Below, in pieces: positions 3,575-50,277 of a stretch of DNA of 64,000 bases. Position 1 is the first letter of the stretch. The number at the start of each line of letters is the position of its first letter. This stretch comes from Halorussus halophilus. Its GTDB lineage: Archaea; Halobacteriota; Halobacteria; Halobacteriales; Haladaptataceae. The DNA lies in assembly GCF_008831545.1 (NCBI RefSeq), contig NZ_CP044524.1, positions 186,001 through 250,000 of the forward strand, given 5' to 3'. The notes under the pieces were generated by a model that worked only from the letters and a program-made list of their open reading frames with translations, was not told where the DNA came from and searched no databases. Made by a program: the position numbers and the translations under genes.

Positions 3575-4120
3575 CTACTCCCCTGAATGGTGTGCGTTCG
3601 TCTCGTCGAGGTGGCGATGATTCCGCACTCGCTCCGGCGTGCCACTCAAGATGCCGCGAACGTCGGTTATCGGGTCGCCGACTTCGATACCGTCAGCAGT
3701 GATGGTGTACTCTCGGAGGGTGTCCTCGAAGCCGCCGATACGCTTCTTGACGACGCCAGCGACTCGCCTGAGCCGCCCATCCAGTTCGATGTACTTCAGG
3801 AACATGATGTTGTCCGCGATGTAACTGATGTTCGAACTGGTGGGACTCGGCAGGCCTGTTACGTGCCCGATCTCGTCGATGAGCACGACGGCCACGTTCA
3901 TGTTCTTCAGATACCGAGTCAGCGCGTGGATCTTCCGACCTAGCTGTTCGACATCACCGTACAGCGCCGACTGGTAACCGTTGATGCCGTCGATCACGAC
4001 GAGTTCGAGGTCCTGCTCTTCGACCTGGGCTCGGGCGCGTTGGCCGAACTCCTCGGCTGACTGCGTAAGCGGGTCGATGGGTTCGAGTGTGAGCGTCCCG
4101 CTGTCACACAGATCCGTCAC
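3575..4120 (-). CDS. KaiC-like ATPase, C-terminal fragment downstream of an in-frame stop
   Basis: This encodes the rest of the second RecA-like domain of the KaiC/RAD55-family protein whose first part is at 4136-5062. It includes the Walker B region (LELVVIDGINGYQ) and a later helix typical of KaiC domains. The frame is identical to that of the upstream part: TAA at 4136-4138, then five codons (TFGIP), then a GTG that could serve as a restart. KaiC-like proteins usually read HRS-x-x-FGIPV here, so the stop replaces one residue, most likely Glu. No good ribosome site precedes the GTG. It may be untranslated, restarted or part of a read-through product. Confidence 0.7.
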   Translation of the reverse strand: MTDLCDSGTLTLEPIDPLTQSAEEFGQRARAQVEEQDLELVVIDGINGYQSALYGDVEQLGRKIHALTRYLKNMNVAVVLIDEIGHVTGLPSPTSSNISYIADNIMFLKYIELDGRLRRVAGVVKKRIGGFEDTLREYTITADGIEVGDPITDVRGILSGTPERVRNHRHLDETNAHHSGE

Positions 4121-4135
4121 CGGGATGCCGAACGT

Positions 4136-5062
4136 TTAAGAGCGGTGGACGAACATGTTCGTCGACTCCTCAAACAGATACGCCACGGCGGACTCGCCGT
4201 TCGACGCAACGGTCTCGAGGAATTCGGTAGCAGTGGTCGACTTACCGACGCCCGATGGCCCGCTGATAATCGTGACAGTTCCGCGTTCGATACCGCCACC
4301 GAGCAGGGCATCGAACTCGTCGATTCCGGACGTGATCTGGGTTGGCTCGAACGCCTCGCTGTGGTCTTGGGGGACGAGCGACGGGAACACGTCGATACTG
4401 CCGTCTCGAATCGCCATGCCGTGGGTGCCGGCCCGGTCACCGACGCCGCGGTGTTTGACCACGTCGATGCGCCGCCCGACTTCGCCTCGTTCGAGGGTGA
4501 TGATGCCGTCACTGAGCGACTGGAGTTGGTCGTCGAGGTCGGTGGTCGTCTTCGTGGCGAGAACCGTTGTCCCCCGGTCTTTGAGAAACCGCATGAACGC
4601 GATCATGCGCTTGCGGAACTGGTACTCGGTCGTCTCGACGTACTGGAGTTGGCTGATGGGGTCGATGAGAACGCGATTCGGGTCGATTTCCTCGACAGCG
4701 TCCCGGATGTCCGCGATGTAGTTCTCGTACTCGACGTCCTGAGGGTTCACGAGGTCGTACGTCCGCTCTTGACTGAAGAACTCGGACTCCGGGCCGAGGT
4801 CGAGGAAGTCGGCGCCGTCGAGGCTGATGCCCAGTTCTTCGGCGTTGACACGGAGGTCCTCGCGTGATTCTTCGCCGTGAATGAAGAGGACGTTTTCGTC
4901 GTTCTCCAGACCTGTGCTCAGGAACTCCGACCCAAGGAGCGTCTTGCCGGTACCCGGCCCCCCGAGGACGAGATAGATGCGCTCGGCGACGAACCCACCC
5001 CGGAGCAACGAATCAAGACCCAAAATTCCACTTGAATATCTTTTTCGAGAATCTATACCCAT
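4136..5062 (-). CDS. KaiC-like (RAD55-family) double-domain ATPase, N-terminal part ending at a premature TAA
   Basis: RecA-like signalling ATPase. Domain 1 carries Walker A GGPGTGKTLLG (about residues 30-42) and the paired glutamates HGEES. Domain 2 begins near residue 235 with Walker A SGPSGVGKSTT and FEEST, then stops at HRS followed by TAA. Continuing in the same frame gives a normal C-terminal half, so the intact protein would be about 495 residues, standard for a double-domain KaiC homologue. Start: ATG at 5062, with a TATA-like CCTTATACC 20-30 bases upstream, indicating a leaderless mRNA. The first 20 codons are AT-richer than the rest. Either a recent nonsense mutation, a sequencing error, or a functional split. 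Confidence 0.75.
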   Translation of the reverse strand: MGIDSRKRYSSGILGLDSLLRGGFVAERIYLVLGGPGTGKTLLGSEFLSTGLENDENVLFIHGEESREDLRVNAEELGISLDGADFLDLGPESEFFSQERTYDLVNPQDVEYENYIADIRDAVEEIDPNRVLIDPISQLQYVETTEYQFRKRMIAFMRFLKDRGTTVLATKTTTDLDDQLQSLSDGIITLERGEVGRRIDVVKHRGVGDRAGTHGMAIRDGSIDVFPSLVPQDHSEAFEPTQITSGIDEFDALLGGGIERGTVTIISGPSGVGKSTTATEFLETVASNGESAVAYLFEESTNMFVHRS

Positions 5063-29475: not shown

Positions 29476-29832
29476 TTATCCGTCCAAGAACGTCCCCAGC
29501 AGTTTCCGCTCGCCGACCCGCAGGTGTTGGTGGAACGTCGGCGCGGACACGTCGAGGACGTCGGCGACGTCCTCGCCGCTGCTGTCGCGGGGCCACTCGA
29601 AGAAGCCAGCGTAGTAGGCGGTCTCCATCGCAGACCGCTGGCGCTCGGTCAGTTCCGACTCCAATGCTGCGCTGAACTCCTGGACCGTGCGGGCCGGTCT
29701 GTCGCGTTCGCGCTGTGCGACGACTTCCATGCCGGGGTAGGCGTCTTGGACGGCCTGAACGACCGTCCGAACGTCTACGTCCTGTGGCACCTCGGCGACG
29801 CACCGCGCGCCATCTTCGTCGAACTCTGCCAT
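29476..29832 (-). CDS. Bat-type HTH_10 DNA-binding fragment separated from its sensor by an in-frame stop
   Basis: The frame continues that of the large sensor gene at 30016-33633. After TAG at 30016-30018 there are 61 open codons (FVYYVTAEDIDPECI onward, typical of the Bat linker domain) and then ATG 29832. The 118-residue piece ends in a full HTH_10 (LTERQRSAMETAYYAGFFEWPR, then GEDVADVLDVSAPTFHQHLRVGERKLL). If translated from ATG it would be a free DNA-binding domain lacking sensors; no strong ribosome site precedes it. Otherwise it is the dead end of a pseudogene or part of a read-through protein. Confidence 0.7.
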   Translation of the reverse strand: MAEFDEDGARCVAEVPQDVDVRTVVQAVQDAYPGMEVVAQRERDRPARTVQEFSAALESELTERQRSAMETAYYAGFFEWPRDSSGEDVADVLDVSAPTFHQHLRVGERKLLGTFLDG

Positions 29833-30015
29833 CTTGAGTGTCCCGCCGTGATCGGCGAGCGCGGGGAGCGGCGACGGCCCCGTGTAGACGACTTCGAAGA
29901 GGTGGCCATCTTCGTGTTCGTTGATGAGTCGGGTGCGCGATATTGCGCCGTCGTCCTTGGCCGACTCTCTGATACACTCGGGGTCGATGTCTTCGGCGGT
30001 GACGTAGTAGACGAA

Positions 30016-33000
30016 CTACTCACCGGGTCCCAGCGTCACTCCTTCGAGCGAAAATTGACACTCCTTCTCGCGGGGGAGTCGAACGAAGAAGTCGTCGCCG
30101 CCGCCGGTCTCCAAGGTAAGTTCGACCACGCCATCCGAAAGCAACGCCTTCCGGTTCTCGATGGCGTTTATGGCGTGGCCGATAGTCTCGCCCAACTCGG
30201 CGAGCACCGCCGTCTCGCGGGTATCGAAGGCGTTTCGCCGGTCGGCGTAGACGCAGAGGACGCCGTAGACAGTCTCTCTGTACCGGAGCGGGATGACGAC
30301 TTCCGACTGGTACCCCTTTTCGAGCGCCTGCTCGCGCCACGGTTCGAAGTCGGGGTCGGATTCGACGTTCTCTATCACCTGTACTTCGCCCGTCTCGTAG
30401 GCCAACTCAACCGGGCCATCCGGCGTCTCTTCCTGCATTGCCGCCGTCTCTGCCAAGTAGTCGTCGCCGTCACCTGCGCTCGCGGTCGGTTCGATTCGTC
30501 CGCTTCCGCTCGCCCCTCGCTTCGACCCGAGCCACGCGAATCGGTACTCCTCGGAAGCCGCGAGTCGGTCGCAGATGGCTTGTTCCATCTCATCGCGCGT
30601 CGAGGTTCGGACGAGCAGTTGGTCGATGTCCCGGATGACCTCGTTGATTCGGTCGAGTTCGGCCAGTTGCTCGCGCTGGTCGGCCAGTTCGGCCTCGCGG
30701 GCCGCTCGTTCGAGCGCGACTTCCGTGTTGGCCGCGAGGACCCGCAGGAGGTCGATTTCGTACTCGTCGAACGCCTCGGTAGTCAGCGACGCGACGGTGA
30801 TGGCACCCCAGTCGCCCAGCGGGAGGACGCAGAAGCCACGAATCGCGGGCGAACCGTCTTCGAGCGCGTTCTCGGCTTCCTGTGCGTTCTCGTGGACGAC
30901 GACCTCGCCGTCGGCGAAGGCGCTGCCGACTACGCCCTCGCCCTTCTCGAAGGTCGGCGCAGAGCCGATGCTCTCGGCCGTCTCGTCCGTCGTGACGAAC
31001 GGTTCGAGTTGCGCTTCGTCCTCGTTCCAACGGAACACGGACGCGTGCGGTTGGTCGAGGACCGTCCTGGCCGTCTCGACGGACGTCTCACCGATTTCGT
31101 ACTCGCGCTCGGCGGCCATCAACTCGCGGGTCGCGCCGTGGAGCGCGTCCAGCATCCGTTCGCGCTCCTTACGTTCGGTGATGTCCGTGTAGATGGTGTA
31201 TCCGCCGTAGTCTTCGCCGGACACTCTCGCGTTCCGGAGGAGGAACTCCCGCGTGCAGTCGGGGCCTTCGCGCGTGACCTCCGCGTCGATGCGCGCACCC
31301 GCCTTCACTTGCTCGTTCAACTGCTCGGCCTCGCCACGGTCCTCGTCGGGGACGATGAGGTCGTCCACGTTTTCGCCGCGTATCTCGTCACCGTCGTAGC
31401 CGAACACCTCCTCGAACGCCTCGTTGACGTTGCGGAGCTTCGGTTCGTCGCCCTGAATCTGGTAGTCGATGGTCGGTTCCGGAATGTTCTCGAACAGTCC
31501 GGCGAAGCGGTCGCGCTCTTCGCGGAGTGCCGTCTCGGATTCGACCCGCTTGAGCGCCTCGGAGGTGTGGGAGACGAGTAGCTCAGCCATCTTCAGGTCG
31601 TCTTCGTCGAACTCGCTCGCACTCCGAGAGCCCGCTTGGAAGACGCCGCGGTCGCCCACCGGCACGCTGAGCAACGACCGGTACTTCTCGTTGGCCAACT
31701 CGACGTCGGTGAGTTCCGTAGCGTCGTCGATGACGTACGACTCGCCGGTCTGGTAGGTCTTCCCAGCGAGCCCCTCGTCCGTGCGGAGGACGTTGTAGTC
31801 TTCCACCACCAGCCCGGAGGAGGTCGCCTTCGGGACGAGATAGTCACCCTCGGCTTCGTCTAACCCGCAGATGTCGAACTTCAGAATCTCTTCTGCGGCA
31901 TCGACGGTCTGGCGATAGATAGCTTCGAGCGTGTCACAGCTTTCGAGTTTGACCGCGACGTGGTGGAGGTCCTCTATCTTCTGCTTCTGGTGCTCGACGT
32001 CGCGCTCCAACTGCTTGCGCTCGGTGATGTCCGTGTACATCACGTAGCCACCGGAGTGCTCGCCCGGCAACTCGGCGGTTCGCAACAGGAACACGCGCTC
32101 GCCGTCCGCCGTCTTTCGGCGAACCTCCGCGTTGACGTGGTCACCCCGTTTCATCCGTTCGACGTGTTCGCGAGCCTTCTCTTTCTGGTCTTCGGGGACG
32201 AGGTGCTCAACCATCGACTCGCCGACCACTTCCTCGGCGTCGTAGCCGAACACCTCCTCGAAGGCCTCGTTGACCGAACGGAAGATGAGTTCGCCGTCGC
32301 GCATCTCGTAGTCGATTATCGAGTCGCGAATGTTCTCGAACAGTCCGGCGAAACGGTCGCGCTCGGCCTGTAACGCGGCTTCTGAGTGAATTCGTTCGAG
32401 CGCCTCCGCGACGTGTGCGACCAACAACTCCGCGAGTTCACGGTCGCTCTCGTCGAACGCGCCGACTTCTTGGGACACTGCTTGGAGGACCCCAACGTCG
32501 CCAATTGGGACCGACAGCGCGGACCGGTAGCCGCTCTCGGCGGGGACGACACCTGCCTCGTGGAGGTCCGCCGTCCGAATCGTCTCGCCGAGTCGATATG
32601 CCCGCGCCGCGAGTTTGTCGTCGGCATCGACGTTGGTCGTGGTGTAGTAGCCGTCCGTCGGAACACCCTTCGAGACCGCTTGCGGGACGAGTTCGCCGTC
32701 GTCTTCGGAGTCTACCGCACAGAGGTCGAACTCCAGCAGTTGCTCGGCCGTCTCGACGGTCAACTCGTAGACCTCGTCGGTCGTCTCGCAGGCTTCCAGC
32801 ATCACCGCGACTTCGTGCAGTTCCTGTGTCTTGCGCTTCTCCTCGGCGAGTCGGTCTTCGAGTCGCTTGCGCTGACTCTCGTCGCGAATGATGCCCGAGA
32901 AGTAGTGGTCGCCGTCGCGTACCGATTCCCGGAACGAGATGGCGAGCGGGATTTCGTGACCGTCTCGATGGCGACCCTTCAACTCGACGTAGTCGCGCTC

Positions 33001-33633
33001 GACCAGTTCCGGTTCCTCCCGCAGTTCGCGTAACTTCGCTTCGAGCGGTTCGTGCATTCTCGGCTGGAGCAGTGTGCGAAAGGAGGTGCCGACCAACGAC
33101 GTCGGGTCGCGGCCGAACACCTGCTCCGTCGTCGCATTGGCGAACACTATTTCGCCCTCCGCGTCGATGGTGACGATTGCGTCCGGCGAGCCATCGACTA
33201 GCGTCCGCAACTGTTCCGCAAACCGGTTCCGTTGTCGCTCGACGCGACGTCGTTCGACGGTGTTCTCGATTCGCTCGGCCAACCGCGCGGCGAAGTCGTC
33301 GGCGTCGGTTGCGACGAACGCCGCGCCCTCCGGACTCGACTCGACCGAGTCGCCGACGTAGAGGCGCGCCGTCTCGGGGTACAGTTCCCCGACTGCGTCG
33401 AGTAGCTCCGCCCCGGTCGTATCCGGTACGTCTGACTCTGCGACGATGCAGTGTACCTCGTCGTCTTCGGCGGCTTCGATTCGTGAGAGTACACCAGCCC
33501 CGGTGCGCTCGGAGGAGACGTGGAGCGTCGAGGAGTAGGCGTCGAGTGCCTTTGCGCGGTCCTCACAGCCGACGTAGACAGCGCGGAGCGACTCCCCCGA
33601 ACTCGCCCCGCGTCTGCCCGACTGTTCGAGCAT
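30016..33633 (-). CDS. Giant PAS/GAF sensor of the bacterio-opsin-activator family, truncated by in-frame TAG
   Basis: A 1205-residue cytoplasmic multi-sensor. From ATG 33633 (preceded by GAGGAAG): receiver-like domain without phospho-site (16-120), PAS (140-255), GAF (275-410), PAS (425-550), GAF (565-705), PAS (715-840), GAF (850-1000), GAF (1020-1160), then the start of the Bat linker domain. Modules are joined by coiled coils, and the second and third PAS-GAF pairs are similar to each other (both begin DRFAGLFENI). It ends at TLGPGE plus TAG, where relatives continue into the linker and HTH_10. The rest follows in the same frame to 29476, giving about 1385 codons. No kinase domain is present. 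Confidence 0.8.
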   Translation of the reverse strand: MLEQSGRRGASSGESLRAVYVGCEDRAKALDAYSSTLHVSSERTGAGVLSRIEAAEDDEVHCIVAESDVPDTTGAELLDAVGELYPETARLYVGDSVESSPEGAAFVATDADDFAARLAERIENTVERRRVERQRNRFAEQLRTLVDGSPDAIVTIDAEGEIVFANATTEQVFGRDPTSLVGTSFRTLLQPRMHEPLEAKLRELREEPELVERDYVELKGRHRDGHEIPLAISFRESVRDGDHYFSGIIRDESQRKRLEDRLAEEKRKTQELHEVAVMLEACETTDEVYELTVETAEQLLEFDLCAVDSEDDGELVPQAVSKGVPTDGYYTTTNVDADDKLAARAYRLGETIRTADLHEAGVVPAESGYRSALSVPIGDVGVLQAVSQEVGAFDESDRELAELLVAHVAEALERIHSEAALQAERDRFAGLFENIRDSIIDYEMRDGELIFRSVNEAFEEVFGYDAEEVVGESMVEHLVPEDQKEKAREHVERMKRGDHVNAEVRRKTADGERVFLLRTAELPGEHSGGYVMYTDITERKQLERDVEHQKQKIEDLHHVAVKLESCDTLEAIYRQTVDAAEEILKFDICGLDEAEGDYLVPKATSSGLVVEDYNVLRTDEGLAGKTYQTGESYVIDDATELTDVELANEKYRSLLSVPVGDRGVFQAGSRSASEFDEDDLKMAELLVSHTSEALKRVESETALREERDRFAGLFENIPEPTIDYQIQGDEPKLRNVNEAFEEVFGYDGDEIRGENVDDLIVPDEDRGEAEQLNEQVKAGARIDAEVTREGPDCTREFLLRNARVSGEDYGGYTIYTDITERKERERMLDALHGATRELMAAEREYEIGETSVETARTVLDQPHASVFRWNEDEAQLEPFVTTDETAESIGSAPTFEKGEGVVGSAFADGEVVVHENAQEAENALEDGSPAIRGFCVLPLGDWGAITVASLTTEAFDEYEIDLLRVLAANTEVALERAAREAELADQREQLAELDRINEVIRDIDQLLVRTSTRDEMEQAICDRLAASEEYRFAWLGSKRGASGSGRIEPTASAGDGDDYLAETAAMQEETPDGPVELAYETGEVQVIENVESDPDFEPWREQALEKGYQSEVVIPLRYRETVYGVLCVYADRRNAFDTRETAVLAELGETIGHAINAIENRKALLSDGVVELTLETGGGDDFFVRLPREKECQFSLEGVTLGPGE

Positions 33634-33694
33634 ACTTCCTCTATCTCCGTTCGCCAACAGTTGTAGGTGTTTCGCTTCCACCTTTTTCTCGTCG

Positions 33695-33828
33695 GGTGGC
33701 TCAGCGCGCGAAGCGCGCTGGCCACCCTCCTCCAAAAAATGTGGATCAAAAAAGAGACGCGAGAATTTCGGGCGGAGCCGACCGAAATTCTCGGCGTCTG
33801 CTGTGCGCTGGTGCGACTTCCGCACAGC
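33695..33828. repeat. Three consecutive imperfect hairpins between the sensor and MutS-like genes
   Basis: The 312-base gap 33634-33945 has no gene. Hairpin 1 (33695-33726): GGTGGC-T-CAGCGCGC, loop GAA, GCGCGCTGGCCACC. Hairpin 2 (33755-33799): AGACGC-GAGAATTTCGG pairs with CCGAAATTCTCGGCGTCT with one bulge. Hairpin 3 (33800-33828): GCTGTGCG pairs with CGCACAGC. They lie between divergent genes, so they are not ordinary terminators. The TATA-like AAAACTAAG at 33912 belongs to the MutS-like gene. Confidence 0.6.
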
Positions 33829-33945
33829 ACCGCAACCGCGCGCGACGGGTCGGTCGAATTGAAGATACTACTTTCACAGTCCAAACCCACCGCTCGCCAC
33901 GCCAGTGTGGACAAAACTAAGAGCCGGGGGTGTCACCCGACAGAT

Positions 33946-35727
33946 ATGCGATTGGAGGAGTACTGGGGCGTCGGCCCAAAGACGAGCGAGCGCCTCGAAG
34001 CCGCGCTGGGCGTCGAGCGGGCCATCGAGGCCATCGAATCGGGCGACGTTCGCGCCCTCGTGTCGGCAGGACTGCCGCGCGGCCGGGCGACCCGCATCCT
34101 TCGGCGGGCCAACGGCGGCGAAGGGATGTCGGTGCTGGCGACCCGCGACACGCGCGCCGTCTACAAGGAACTGCTCGACGCCGCGAGCGACTACGCGGTC
34201 ACCGCGACTGCGGCCGACCGCATTCGTGTGTTGACGCCGCTGCTCGACCGCGAGCAGGCCGGACAGCGCCTCGACAGCGTGATGGCGGCCGTCGAGTCGT
34301 GGACCAACCTCGACGGCGAGACGCGAAACGCGATTCTCAGGGCGTTCGAGACACACGCCGACGCCGACGAATTGGACGAGGAGCAAGCAGCGGTCGAAAC
34401 CGCGCTCTCGCTTCGAGACGCTGGCGTCTCCGGCGGGGCGTTCGAGCGCGTGGGCGGCATCGACCGCGACGACCTCGAAGCCGCGGCGAACGCGCTGGCG
34501 GACCTAGACGGCGGCGACGTGGCGCGCGGGGTGGACGAAGACCTCGACTCGCTCCGAGACGCGCTCGCGGATGCCGAATCGCTCCAGCAGGATTCCTTAG
34601 ATGCTGTCGAATCAATTCGCGAGGAGGCCCGCGCTGGCGCGGAGTTCTCGGAGGTAGTCGTGGACTTCGTGTCCAGCGAGACCGGCGCAGGCTACTCGCG
34701 GGTCAGAGACGCCACGCCGGACGACGCCATCGACGCCGGGGACTTCGTGGGTGCGACGCTCCGCGAACTGCTGGCCGACCTTCGTGAAGCAGTCGAAGAA
34801 CGCGAGCGGACCGTCGCCCGCAGACTGCGAGGCCGCATCGCCGAGTCGCAGGAGGCCATCGACGAGGCCAACGAAGCGGTCGGCGACCTCGCGTTCTCGC
34901 TGTCGCTCGCCCGGTTTTCCGTCGCGTTCGACTGTTCGCGCCCGGAGTTCACCGAGAACGGCTTCGCGGTCACCGGTGCGAGAAACGTCTCGCTGGTCTC
35001 CGTAGACGACGATTTGGTGCAACCCGTGAACTACGCCATCGGCGACCACGAGATAACTGGCAACGAAGCACCGCCGGACGGCGACCGCGTGGCAGTGCTG
35101 ACTGGGGCGAACAGCGGTGGTAAGACGACTCTGCTCGAAACCTTGTGCCAGATTGCACTGCTCGCGCAGATGGGCCTGCCCGTCCCCGCCGAGCGCGCCC
35201 AAATCTCGCTCTCGGAGGACATCGTCTTCCACCGACGCCACGCGAGTTTCAACGCGGGCGTCCTCGAATCGACGCTCCAGAGCATCGTGCCGCCGCTCTC
35301 GGACGACTCCGAGACCCTGATGCTCGTGGACGAGTTCGAGGCCATCACTGAACCGGGGAGTGCCGCCGACCTCCTGCACGGCCTCGTCAGACTCACGGCC
35401 GACCGGGGCGCGCTCGGGGTGTTCGTCACGCACCTCGCGGACGACCTCAAGCCACTTCCCGAAAAAGCTCGCAAGGACGGCATCTTCGCCGAGGGACTGG
35501 ACGACGACCTCGAACTACAGGTCGATTACCAACCGCGCTTCGACACCGTCGGGAAATCGACGCCGGAGTTCATCGTGTCGCGCCTGCTCGCAGGCACAGA
35601 CGACCGCGCAGTTCGCTCGAACTTCGAGACGCTGGCGCGAGCGGTCGGCGAGCAAGCGGTTCAGCGCACGCTATCTGATTGGTCGCCGGAAGACGACGCG
35701 GGAGGAGACGCGAAAGCAGACGATTGA
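33946..35727 (+). CDS. MutS-family ATPase with N-terminal helix-hairpin-helix region (MutS2-like)
   Basis: A 593-residue protein. The N-terminus (1-60) contains a helix-hairpin-helix-like segment (YWGVGPKTSERLEAALG, then LVSAGLPRGRATRILRRA), a helical core spans about 100-330, and the ABC-type ATPase at the C-terminus has Walker A TGANSGGKTTLLE, the signature region NAGVLESTLQSIV and Walker B MLVDEFEAIT. It lacks the mismatch-recognition domain of MutS and the Smr nuclease of bacterial MutS2, so mismatch repair is doubtful; branched DNA or recombination intermediates are likelier. ATG 33946 is preferred to upstream starts because AAAACTAAG supplies a TATA for a near-leaderless transcript and the extra codons lie in the hairpin region. 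Confidence 0.85.
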   Translation: MRLEEYWGVGPKTSERLEAALGVERAIEAIESGDVRALVSAGLPRGRATRILRRANGGEGMSVLATRDTRAVYKELLDAASDYAVTATAADRIRVLTPLLDREQAGQRLDSVMAAVESWTNLDGETRNAILRAFETHADADELDEEQAAVETALSLRDAGVSGGAFERVGGIDRDDLEAAANALADLDGGDVARGVDEDLDSLRDALADAESLQQDSLDAVESIREEARAGAEFSEVVVDFVSSETGAGYSRVRDATPDDAIDAGDFVGATLRELLADLREAVEERERTVARRLRGRIAESQEAIDEANEAVGDLAFSLSLARFSVAFDCSRPEFTENGFAVTGARNVSLVSVDDDLVQPVNYAIGDHEITGNEAPPDGDRVAVLTGANSGGKTTLLETLCQIALLAQMGLPVPAERAQISLSEDIVFHRRHASFNAGVLESTLQSIVPPLSDDSETLMLVDEFEAITEPGSAADLLHGLVRLTADRGALGVFVTHLADDLKPLPEKARKDGIFAEGLDDDLELQVDYQPRFDTVGKSTPEFIVSRLLAGTDDRAVRSNFETLARAVGEQAVQRTLSDWSPEDDAGGDAKADD

Positions 35728-36076: not shown

Positions 36077-37684
36077 ATGGACGAGCGCGACGAGCGAGCG
36101 TCTCGACCCGGCGAGCAGTCAAAACGCCGAGCAAATCGACGGGAGGAGTCCACGAGCGACCGCCAGCGCGCCGACCAACTCCGCGAGCGAGTGCGAAGCG
36201 AATACGGAAGCGACGCCGACGCAATCGCCACGCGCCTCGACAGCGACGACCCCGAGGAGCGCGCCGGGGCGGCGTGGGCTCTCGCCGAACTCGCTGGAGA
36301 AGACCCGGACCGTCTTCCCGCCCGCTCGAAACTCGCCGCGCTCCTCTCCGACGACCACCGCTGGGTTCGCCGCGGCGCGTCGTGGGCGCTCGCCGCACTC
36401 GCCGACAGCAACCCCCACCGCGCCCGGATGGCCACCGAAGAGGTCATCGATGCGCTGTCAGACGACGACCCGCTCGTTCGGGAGAATACGGTCCTTACGC
36501 TCTCGTCGGTCGCTACCGAGTATCCACGCGCAGTCGAACCCGCACTCTCTCGACTGGCGACGCTCGTGAACGAGGAGGAGGGACTACTTCGAAAGTACGC
36601 CGCAGAGACACTCCACCGACTCGTCCGCGAACTCGACGAAGACGGCTTTCCGAAGACTATCGCGGCCTCTCCGGCGCTCGCGAACTTCCTGCCGGGCGAT
36701 GCGACGATTGTGGAGTTCTCCGACGAGGAAACCGTCGGAGAGTCGTCGGTCAGCGTTCGACCCCCGGAGTTCGACACCGACTCGGGTGAAGACACCACGG
36801 ACGACGCTCGTTCCCAACTCGGACCGCCCGACTACGTTTCGACGCCCCCCGAAATCGACGCGGGGTTCCGGGACTTCGAGCGACTCGCCGACCGCGGAAG
36901 CGGGCCGTTCACGACCTTCCAGAAAGCGCGCGCCCCGGACCCCGAGAGCGCGAGCGGAAGCCACGTCGTCGTCACGCTCCGAGCGGCGCGCCGAGACGGA
37001 TTAGCAGACGAAGACGCGCTCTCCCGCGCGCTCCGTGCGTGGGACGCCATCTCGGACCACAACCACGTGCTTCCGATAGTCGCGCGCGGTGAGACGCCGC
37101 GCCCGTGGGTCGCCACCGAGTTCGTGGACGGCGGCACCGTGCGCGACCGAATCGGCGGTCTCGACTTCGCTCAGGCGCTCTGGTACGCCCACTGCGTGAC
37201 GACGGCGCTCTGTCACGCCCACGCACAGGGCGTCCTCCACGGCGCGCTCAGGCCGGGCGTCGTCGGTCTCTCCCAGAGCTTCGGCGCGTGGTCCGTGCCG
37301 AAAGTCGGCGACTGGGGCTTCGGTGTCGGTCTCCCGAACGAGACACGACCACCTGTGCCACCGGCGTTCGCCGCGCCCGAACAACTCGCACCCGAGGAGT
37401 TCGGCCGACTCGACCACGCGACCGACGTGTACCAACTCGGTGCGCTCTGCTACGCGCTGTTCGCGGGCAGACCGCCGTTCGTCGGCGACTCGAAAGAGGT
37501 CGCTCGACGGGTCCAGAAACGAGACCCTGCTCCAGCGAGCTCGATCAATTCGGCGGTTCCCGAGGCGGTTGACGGTCTGCTCACGCGGGCACTCACGAAG
37601 GAGAAACCCGCGCGCTTCGAGACGGCCGAGGACTTCCGCCGCGAGTTAGAAGTCGTCGTCGAGGAGTACGCGACGTGGGCGTGA
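36077..37684 (+). CDS. HEAT-repeat protein fused to a Ser/Thr protein pseudokinase
   Basis: A 535-residue fusion. Residues 1-40 are charged and disordered. Residues 45-190 form HEAT-type repeats (ERAGAAWALAELAGEDP, RRGASWALAALADSNP, RENTVLTLSSVATEYP, RKYAAETLHRLVREL). After an acidic linker, residues 255-525 follow a eukaryotic-type kinase fold: the hinge ATEFVDGGTVRDRI, the APE box FAAPEQL, and DVYQLGALCYALFAGRPPF are kept. Catalytic residues are lost: HRDLKP has become HGALRP, DFG has become DWGFG in altered context, and no clear strand-3 lysine is present. It should bind partners rather than phosphorylate. There is no membrane segment. Confidence 0.8.
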   Translation: MDERDERASRPGEQSKRRANRREESTSDRQRADQLRERVRSEYGSDADAIATRLDSDDPEERAGAAWALAELAGEDPDRLPARSKLAALLSDDHRWVRRGASWALAALADSNPHRARMATEEVIDALSDDDPLVRENTVLTLSSVATEYPRAVEPALSRLATLVNEEEGLLRKYAAETLHRLVRELDEDGFPKTIAASPALANFLPGDATIVEFSDEETVGESSVSVRPPEFDTDSGEDTTDDARSQLGPPDYVSTPPEIDAGFRDFERLADRGSGPFTTFQKARAPDPESASGSHVVVTLRAARRDGLADEDALSRALRAWDAISDHNHVLPIVARGETPRPWVATEFVDGGTVRDRIGGLDFAQALWYAHCVTTALCHAHAQGVLHGALRPGVVGLSQSFGAWSVPKVGDWGFGVGLPNETRPPVPPAFAAPEQLAPEEFGRLDHATDVYQLGALCYALFAGRPPFVGDSKEVARRVQKRDPAPASSINSAVPEAVDGLLTRALTKEKPARFETAEDFRRELEVVVEEYATWA

Positions 37685-46521: not shown

Positions 46522-47532
46522 TTACTGACCGCCGAACAGTAGCAACCGACCGCTCACGAAGACGAAGTACGCGACGACCAAACTGGCCGCGTCTCGGCGG
46601 CCGAGTCGGCCGTCGGTGACGAACAGCACGTAGCCCAGTACGCCGCCACCGACTACGAGCATGAGCGGCAGGTCCCAGAGGACGACGGGTTGGGGAACGC
46701 GATACGACGACACCAACCCGCCGATACCGATTGCGACGAGCGTGTTGACGACGTTGCTCCCGACCAGCGTTCCGAGCGCGAGCGTCGGCGTTCGTCGCCT
46801 CACTGCCTCGGCGACGGTCGAGAGTTCCGGCAGGGCCGCTCCGACGCCGAGCGTGACGACGCCGACCATCGACCCGCCGAGGCGTAGCACGGCGACGAGT
46901 TCCTCCAGCACGGCCAGCGTAACGTAGGCGCTGACCAGCACCGTCACTAGCCCGAGGAGGCCGACTGCCGCGTCGAGGCGGACGTCGCCGGGCGCTCGCT
47001 CGTCTTCCGACTCTGGTTCGACGGCCTCCGGAAGCGTCCGCTCGCGTCGGTCGAAGGTGTAGTAGAGGTACACCACGAAAGCCCCGACCAAGACGCCGCC
47101 GTCGAGGTGCGAAATCGTCCCGTCGGCCGCGAGCGCGAGTGTCAGCGCCACCGACAGCACCATCGGGACGTAGCTCGCGCGCAGGAACGACCGCGAGAGC
47201 GTCACGGTGCCGAACCCGAGCAAGAACGCCCCGACGAGCAACGTCTGCTGGAACATCGAGGACCCGACGCTCCCGCCCAGCACCGTCGCGGAGGCCACGC
47301 CGTAGTCGAGCGTCCCCGAGAGGATGCCCAGCGAGGCGATGAGGTTCGCGGCGATTTCCGGCAGACTCGTCCCGAACGCGACGACGGTCATCCCGACGAT
47401 GGCCTCGTCCACGTCGTACTGTCGTGCGACTCTGACGAACCGTTCGACCGCGACGGCGGCGCTCTTGACGAGCGCGGCTAGCGCGACCGCGCCGACGAGT
47501 ATCACGACCACCGTTCGAGGGGAAACGACCAC
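46522..47532 (-). CDS. Ca2+/Na+ (cation/Ca2+) exchanger, YrbG type
   Basis: A 336-residue membrane antiporter with two homologous halves of about five helices. The alpha-1 motif GTSLPEIAAN and alpha-2 motif GAALPELSTV..GSNVVN hold the ion-binding glutamates. The loop between halves (about 160-195) is acidic and might sense cytoplasmic calcium. It starts at GTG 47532, 30 bases after the stop of a Ca2+-type P-type ATPase on the same strand, so both are probably in one operon for calcium export. Confidence 0.88.
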   Translation of the reverse strand: MVVSPRTVVVILVGAVALAALVKSAAVAVERFVRVARQYDVDEAIVGMTVVAFGTSLPEIAANLIASLGILSGTLDYGVASATVLGGSVGSSMFQQTLLVGAFLLGFGTVTLSRSFLRASYVPMVLSVALTLALAADGTISHLDGGVLVGAFVVYLYYTFDRRERTLPEAVEPESEDERAPGDVRLDAAVGLLGLVTVLVSAYVTLAVLEELVAVLRLGGSMVGVVTLGVGAALPELSTVAEAVRRRTPTLALGTLVGSNVVNTLVAIGIGGLVSSYRVPQPVVLWDLPLMLVVGGGVLGYVLFVTDGRLGRRDAASLVVAYFVFVSGRLLLFGGQ

Positions 47533-47562
47533 GCCGGAGGTGCGACGAGCGTCCGTGTAAAA

Positions 47563-50277
<2,715 letters not shown>

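Follow-up and report, generated by a model that had tools for sequence, protein, structure and literature searches.

A probable lineage-specific nonsense mutation in a large Bat-type regulator of Halorussus halophilus

Introduction

Is the in-frame stop codon in a large Bat-type gene of Halorussus halophilus a genuine loss of function, an error in the deposited sequence, the boundary between two working proteins, or a codon that the cell reads through? The Bat protein of Halobacterium salinarum combines GAF and PAS domains with a C-terminal HTH (PMC3184054). In H. halophilus, an earlier sequence-only reading had described a Bat-type sensor whose DNA-binding part is cut off by one in-frame TAG, and translation and Pfam searches agree with this description. 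The gene lies in a window of 64,000 nucleotides, the whole stretch of DNA analyzed here, which corresponds to positions 186001-250000 of a 532-kb replicon; the host genome consists of four contigs totaling 4.45 Mb. Coordinates are those of the window unless another sequence is named.

Gene layout and domain architecture

The gene occupies a minus-strand frame running from ATG 33633 to TAA 29476-29478, in which translation reveals only one interruption, the TAG at 30016-30018. The frame is otherwise open over 1385 residues and encodes a PAS/GAF sensor, a BAT domain (PF15915) and HTH_10; upstream of ATG 33633 it remains open to GTG 33825. The part preceding the TAG comprises 1205 residues with the C-terminus LGPGE, and the residues following it begin with FVYYVTAEDIDPE. 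The locus comprises the following features:

30016-33633, minus strand: truncated sensor ORF, 1205 aa (translation and Pfam PAS/GAF matches)
about 32872-33216, minus strand: first PAS domain (Pfam)
about 32392-32778, minus strand: GAF domain (Pfam)
about 32011-32298, minus strand: second PAS domain (Pfam)
about 30169-30603, minus strand: last GAF domain (Pfam)
30016-30018, minus strand: in-frame TAG, private to the H. halophilus genome (translation and orthologue comparison)
29671-30135, minus strand: BAT domain (PF15915), bisected by the TAG (Pfam and AlphaFold model)
29476-30015, minus strand: post-stop open frame, 179 codons to the TAA, with the BAT remainder and HTH_10 (translation and Pfam)
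29497-29652, minus strand: HTH_10 (PF04967) DNA-binding domain, intact (Pfam)
29476-29832, minus strand: sole candidate restart ORF, from ATG 29832, 118 aa (start-codon scan and orthologue alignment)

With Pfam-detected PAS and GAF domains at the N-terminal side, the domain order is identical to that of Bat-type regulators (GAF/PAS, PF15915 and PF04967; PMC3184054), and all domains share one frame if the TAG is passed. Unlike H. salinarum Bat, the H. halophilus gene is broken by a stop within the BAT domain: Pfam places model positions 1-40 before the TAG and 41-155 after it, and the BAT model searched across the TAG matches from 1 to 155 with one internal TAG. Sensor and BAT/HTH_10 are both encoded but do not form one polypeptide, as the TAG separates BAT 41-155 and HTH_10 from the rest. 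The gene, which belongs to a set of about ten large Bat-type regulators, is a family member by descent that fails the defining trait, namely sensor and HTH in one polypeptide. No bacteriorhodopsin gene was found among the scanned neighbours.

The coding signature is unbroken over the TAG (GC3 of 0.79 before the stop and 0.82 after it), and the 179 post-stop codons contain no further stops or indels. GC3 of the gene (29476-33633) is 0.79-0.83, compared with 0.89-0.94 in the H. vallis and H. limi orthologues. When the read-through module is modelled with AlphaFold (mean pLDDT 71.5; mostly 72-93 in BAT and about 40 in the HTH), the TAG maps to a turn between strands 44-52 and 58-65, early in the alpha/beta fold, so that neither half is predicted to contain a whole BAT domain. 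A PDB sequence search returned nothing relevant.

Orthologues and the ancestral codon

The comparison with relatives that the sequence-only reading had called for gave a clear pattern: no stop occurs at the site or close to it in any of the 16 same-genus orthologues, all are uninterrupted there, and all carry an invariant Ser, encoded by TCG in 15 cases and TCT in one. Relatives had been expected to carry a Glu-like residue at this position; Glu was seen in just two homologues, from a more distant genus. The orthologues' Ser codon makes TCG to TAG, a C-to-A change on the coding strand, the simplest origin, and the previously proposed conversion of GAG to TAG by a G-to-T change does not apply. 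By this comparison, the stop is derived and private to the H. halophilus genome.

The open frame past the TAG is more than a coincidence: the read-through product is collinear with uninterrupted orthologues such as Halorussus vallis NGM07_RS21295 (GAF domain-containing; plasmid unnamed1, NZ_CP100001), a syntenic orthologue with 68% identity over the C-terminal 385 residues. Unlike the H. halophilus gene, this is an intact single gene of 1228 residues with Ser TCG at the site. In both species, genes for a MutS-domain and a HEAT-repeat protein flank it on one side, and genes for a hypothetical protein and an M24 peptidase on the other, which identifies the gene as an orthologue and not merely a paralogue. 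In the window, a MutS-domain-V protein (33667-35727, plus strand) and a HEAT-repeat/kinase-like protein (36077-37684, plus strand) adjoin the large Bat sensor, and this linkage is conserved in H. halophilus, H. vallis and H. aquaticus. The plasmid, genome and viral collections searched contained no further sequence from this species or from any close strain.

The Halorussus aquaticus orthologue (NZ_CP100401, 50855-55386) is likewise annotated as two ORFs, a PAS sensor and a bacterio-opsin activator domain protein (NGM06_RS18695 and NGM06_RS18705); its break, however, is a frameshift by a 1-nt deletion near residue 893 and not the H. halophilus TAG. If both sequences are right, this independent break indicates that loss of the regulator has been tolerated at least twice, and on these genomes such loss seems to be tolerated. 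The orthologue in an incomplete genome (G012) also changes frame, but it sits on a short contig.

Divergence of the output module

Private changes were counted in H. halophilus and its sister H. vallis, polarised with 15 other orthologues. The H. halophilus to H. vallis ratio is 57:55 for the sensor versus 31:4 for the output module (Fisher p 5e-5), for a partition chosen after seeing where the changes fall; with the partition at the stop itself, it is 64:56 before versus 24:3 after (p 5e-4). The module breaks down into 7:1 in the BAT stub, 18:3 in post-stop BAT and 6:0 in the HTH, and none of six control pairs displays a comparable skew (p 0.15 or more). The corresponding end branches of the tree are 0.49 versus 0.37 before the stop and 0.38 versus 0.09 after it. 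The fast-diverging output module spans 29476-30153 (minus strand). There was no sign of recombination as the cause of the slow H. vallis module, in a comparison of little power, with fourfold sites near saturation everywhere.

The skew extends to the last 45 residues ahead of the stop, as would be expected if the whole output module had fallen out of use, although the module divergence could also have preceded the stop. After the stop, 4 of 73 invariant columns have changed (2 of 37 within the HTH); this retention of most invariant residues, together with the lack of a second lesion, suggests that the break is not old. For the same reasons, the post-stop remnant would be either young or still somewhat useful. 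The sensor half shows no relaxation, which is odd for a dead gene.

A nonsense mutation as the best explanation

The best explanation of the locus, in our view, is that a large transcriptional regulator of the Bat type has suffered a lineage-specific nonsense mutation, in the simplest case from Ser TCG to TAG; we give this a probability of roughly 0.7. Termination at the TAG would yield a 1205-residue PAS/GAF sensor ending in a 40-residue BAT stub and lacking HTH_10, and without this domain the truncated sensor is presumably unable to bind target promoters. The downstream 179 codons would be a remnant, probably untranslated or yielding only a partial 118-aa fragment. As a transcription factor, the gene would in effect be a pseudogene, judging from its sequence. 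We infer both that the remnant goes untranslated and that the TAG is correct in the cell.

Base-call error and other interrupted genes

An unlikely alternative is a base-call or assembly error, in which case the gene is intact in the cell and the TAG exists only in the deposited sequence. In favour of this, the lesion is one substitution in a 4.2-kb frame that is otherwise intact, with no second lesion, and the assembly contains two more single-stop genes. The first encodes a KaiC-like ATPase (3575-5062, minus strand); the second of its two KaiC-type domains contains a lone TAA (4136-4138), at a site occupied by Glu (GAG or GAA) in 7 of 9 homologues. The second is a Bat paralogue on the main chromosome (C1:2430154-2431899), which, like the gene studied here, has one stop that leaves its HTH separate; it differs in that the stop is a TGA between BAT and HTH_10, at a position that is Arg in 12 of 12 genus orthologues (CGN in 11, AGG in one). 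Counted at E < 1e-25, BAT domains with an internal stop number 2 of 11 in this genome versus 0 of 121 in the 17 other genus genomes (Fisher p 0.006, or 0.08 without the discovery case).

Several observations weigh against an error. There is no general excess of stops, with none in 85 ABC-ATPase and none in 34 HATPase domains, and the TAG is the sole clear mid-gene stop among about 210 homologous genes on the replicon compared with H. vallis, as judged by eye, most apparent stops in that comparison being wrong-strand ORFs or over-extended starts. A genome-wide systematic stop-codon error was rejected, as it was seen neither in these families nor in the replicon-wide comparison. Neither a CTAG nor a GATC motif is present at the site. 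The three lesions are three different stop codons that arose by different substitutions, as expected if members of large paralogous signalling families are lost independently. An error would also leave the faster divergence of the output module unexplained; this divergence favours a real, though not brand-new, truncation.

The KaiC-like ATPase is probably the other broken gene of the sequence-only reading, which had left its second long gene unnamed; it was the only matching case found. An expected Glu at the stop holds for most homologues of this gene, but the kind of mutation is not shared with the Bat-type gene. A P-type cation ATPase and a Na/Ca exchanger (46522-50277, minus strand) share a frame with one TAG between them and can be mistaken for a broken gene; they were rejected as the second case, being two complete neighbouring genes that a stop separates in relatives as well.

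Fate of the two halves

The nonsense mutation could also have left a useful product. In this variant, which we regard as improbable, the shortened sensor would be retained as an active protein that does not bind DNA, while only the output module decays; it may, for example, compete with paralogous Bat regulators or draw off their signal. The suggestion derives from the normal rate of divergence in the sensor half and the faster rate in the module.

A functional split, with a sensor lacking DNA binding and a separate BAT/HTH protein made by re-initiation, is very unlikely. The post-stop frame is open, with a strong coding signature and a complete HTH_10, and overlapping gene pairs in Haloferax volcanii are an established case of termination-reinitiation (PMC6728339). 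However, the first ATG, GTG or TTG past the TAG is ATG 29832, located 183 nt downstream, a distance far greater than in the overlapping pairs used to test coupling, so that re-initiation is not expected here. Its 118-aa product, partial BAT plus HTH, lacks much of the BAT fold, the restart Met is absent from the orthologues and hence not ancestral, and the output module is evolving at a higher rate, not a lower one. The earlier reading had named as an alternative that relatives might conserve two independent stable proteins, but no relative has the split, and the second half has no conserved start of its own. Of the sensor without DNA binding and the free HTH domain that had been predicted, the former agrees with our reading, while the free HTH is doubtful, given the bisected BAT domain and the distant start.

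Amber read-through or reassignment, in which a suppressor tRNA or pyrrolysine yields the full-length regulator, is the least probable reading and was rejected: the frame is intact and key residues are retained after the stop, but no CUA anticodon was found among the tRNAs read (45 matches, of which two untyped, with some probably intron-bearing tRNAs unrecovered), all matches to pyrrolysyl-tRNA synthetase (PylS) fall below the family cut-off, TAG terminates routinely on the replicon, archaeal stop read-through is reviewed as demonstrated for selenocysteine and pyrrolysine alone (PMC8211752), and the stops in the KaiC-like gene and the Bat paralogue are TAA and TGA. TAG is a regular terminator in H. 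halophilus: it ends 113 of 444 called ORFs on the 532-kb replicon. Among the TAG-ended ORFs, 52 have a homologue in H. vallis with at least 50% identity, and 43 of these stop where that homologue stops.

Implications

The stop has the appearance of an ordinary loss-of-function mutation, with a sequencing error as the less likely option, and not of a new genetic trick. Two cautions follow from the locus: acquiring a stop is nothing unusual for a gene in a large paralogous family of regulators, and the codon that the stop replaced should be read off relatives, not guessed. If shown to be expressed and selected, the sensor half would illustrate sensor-only proteins arising from haloarchaeal one-component regulators.
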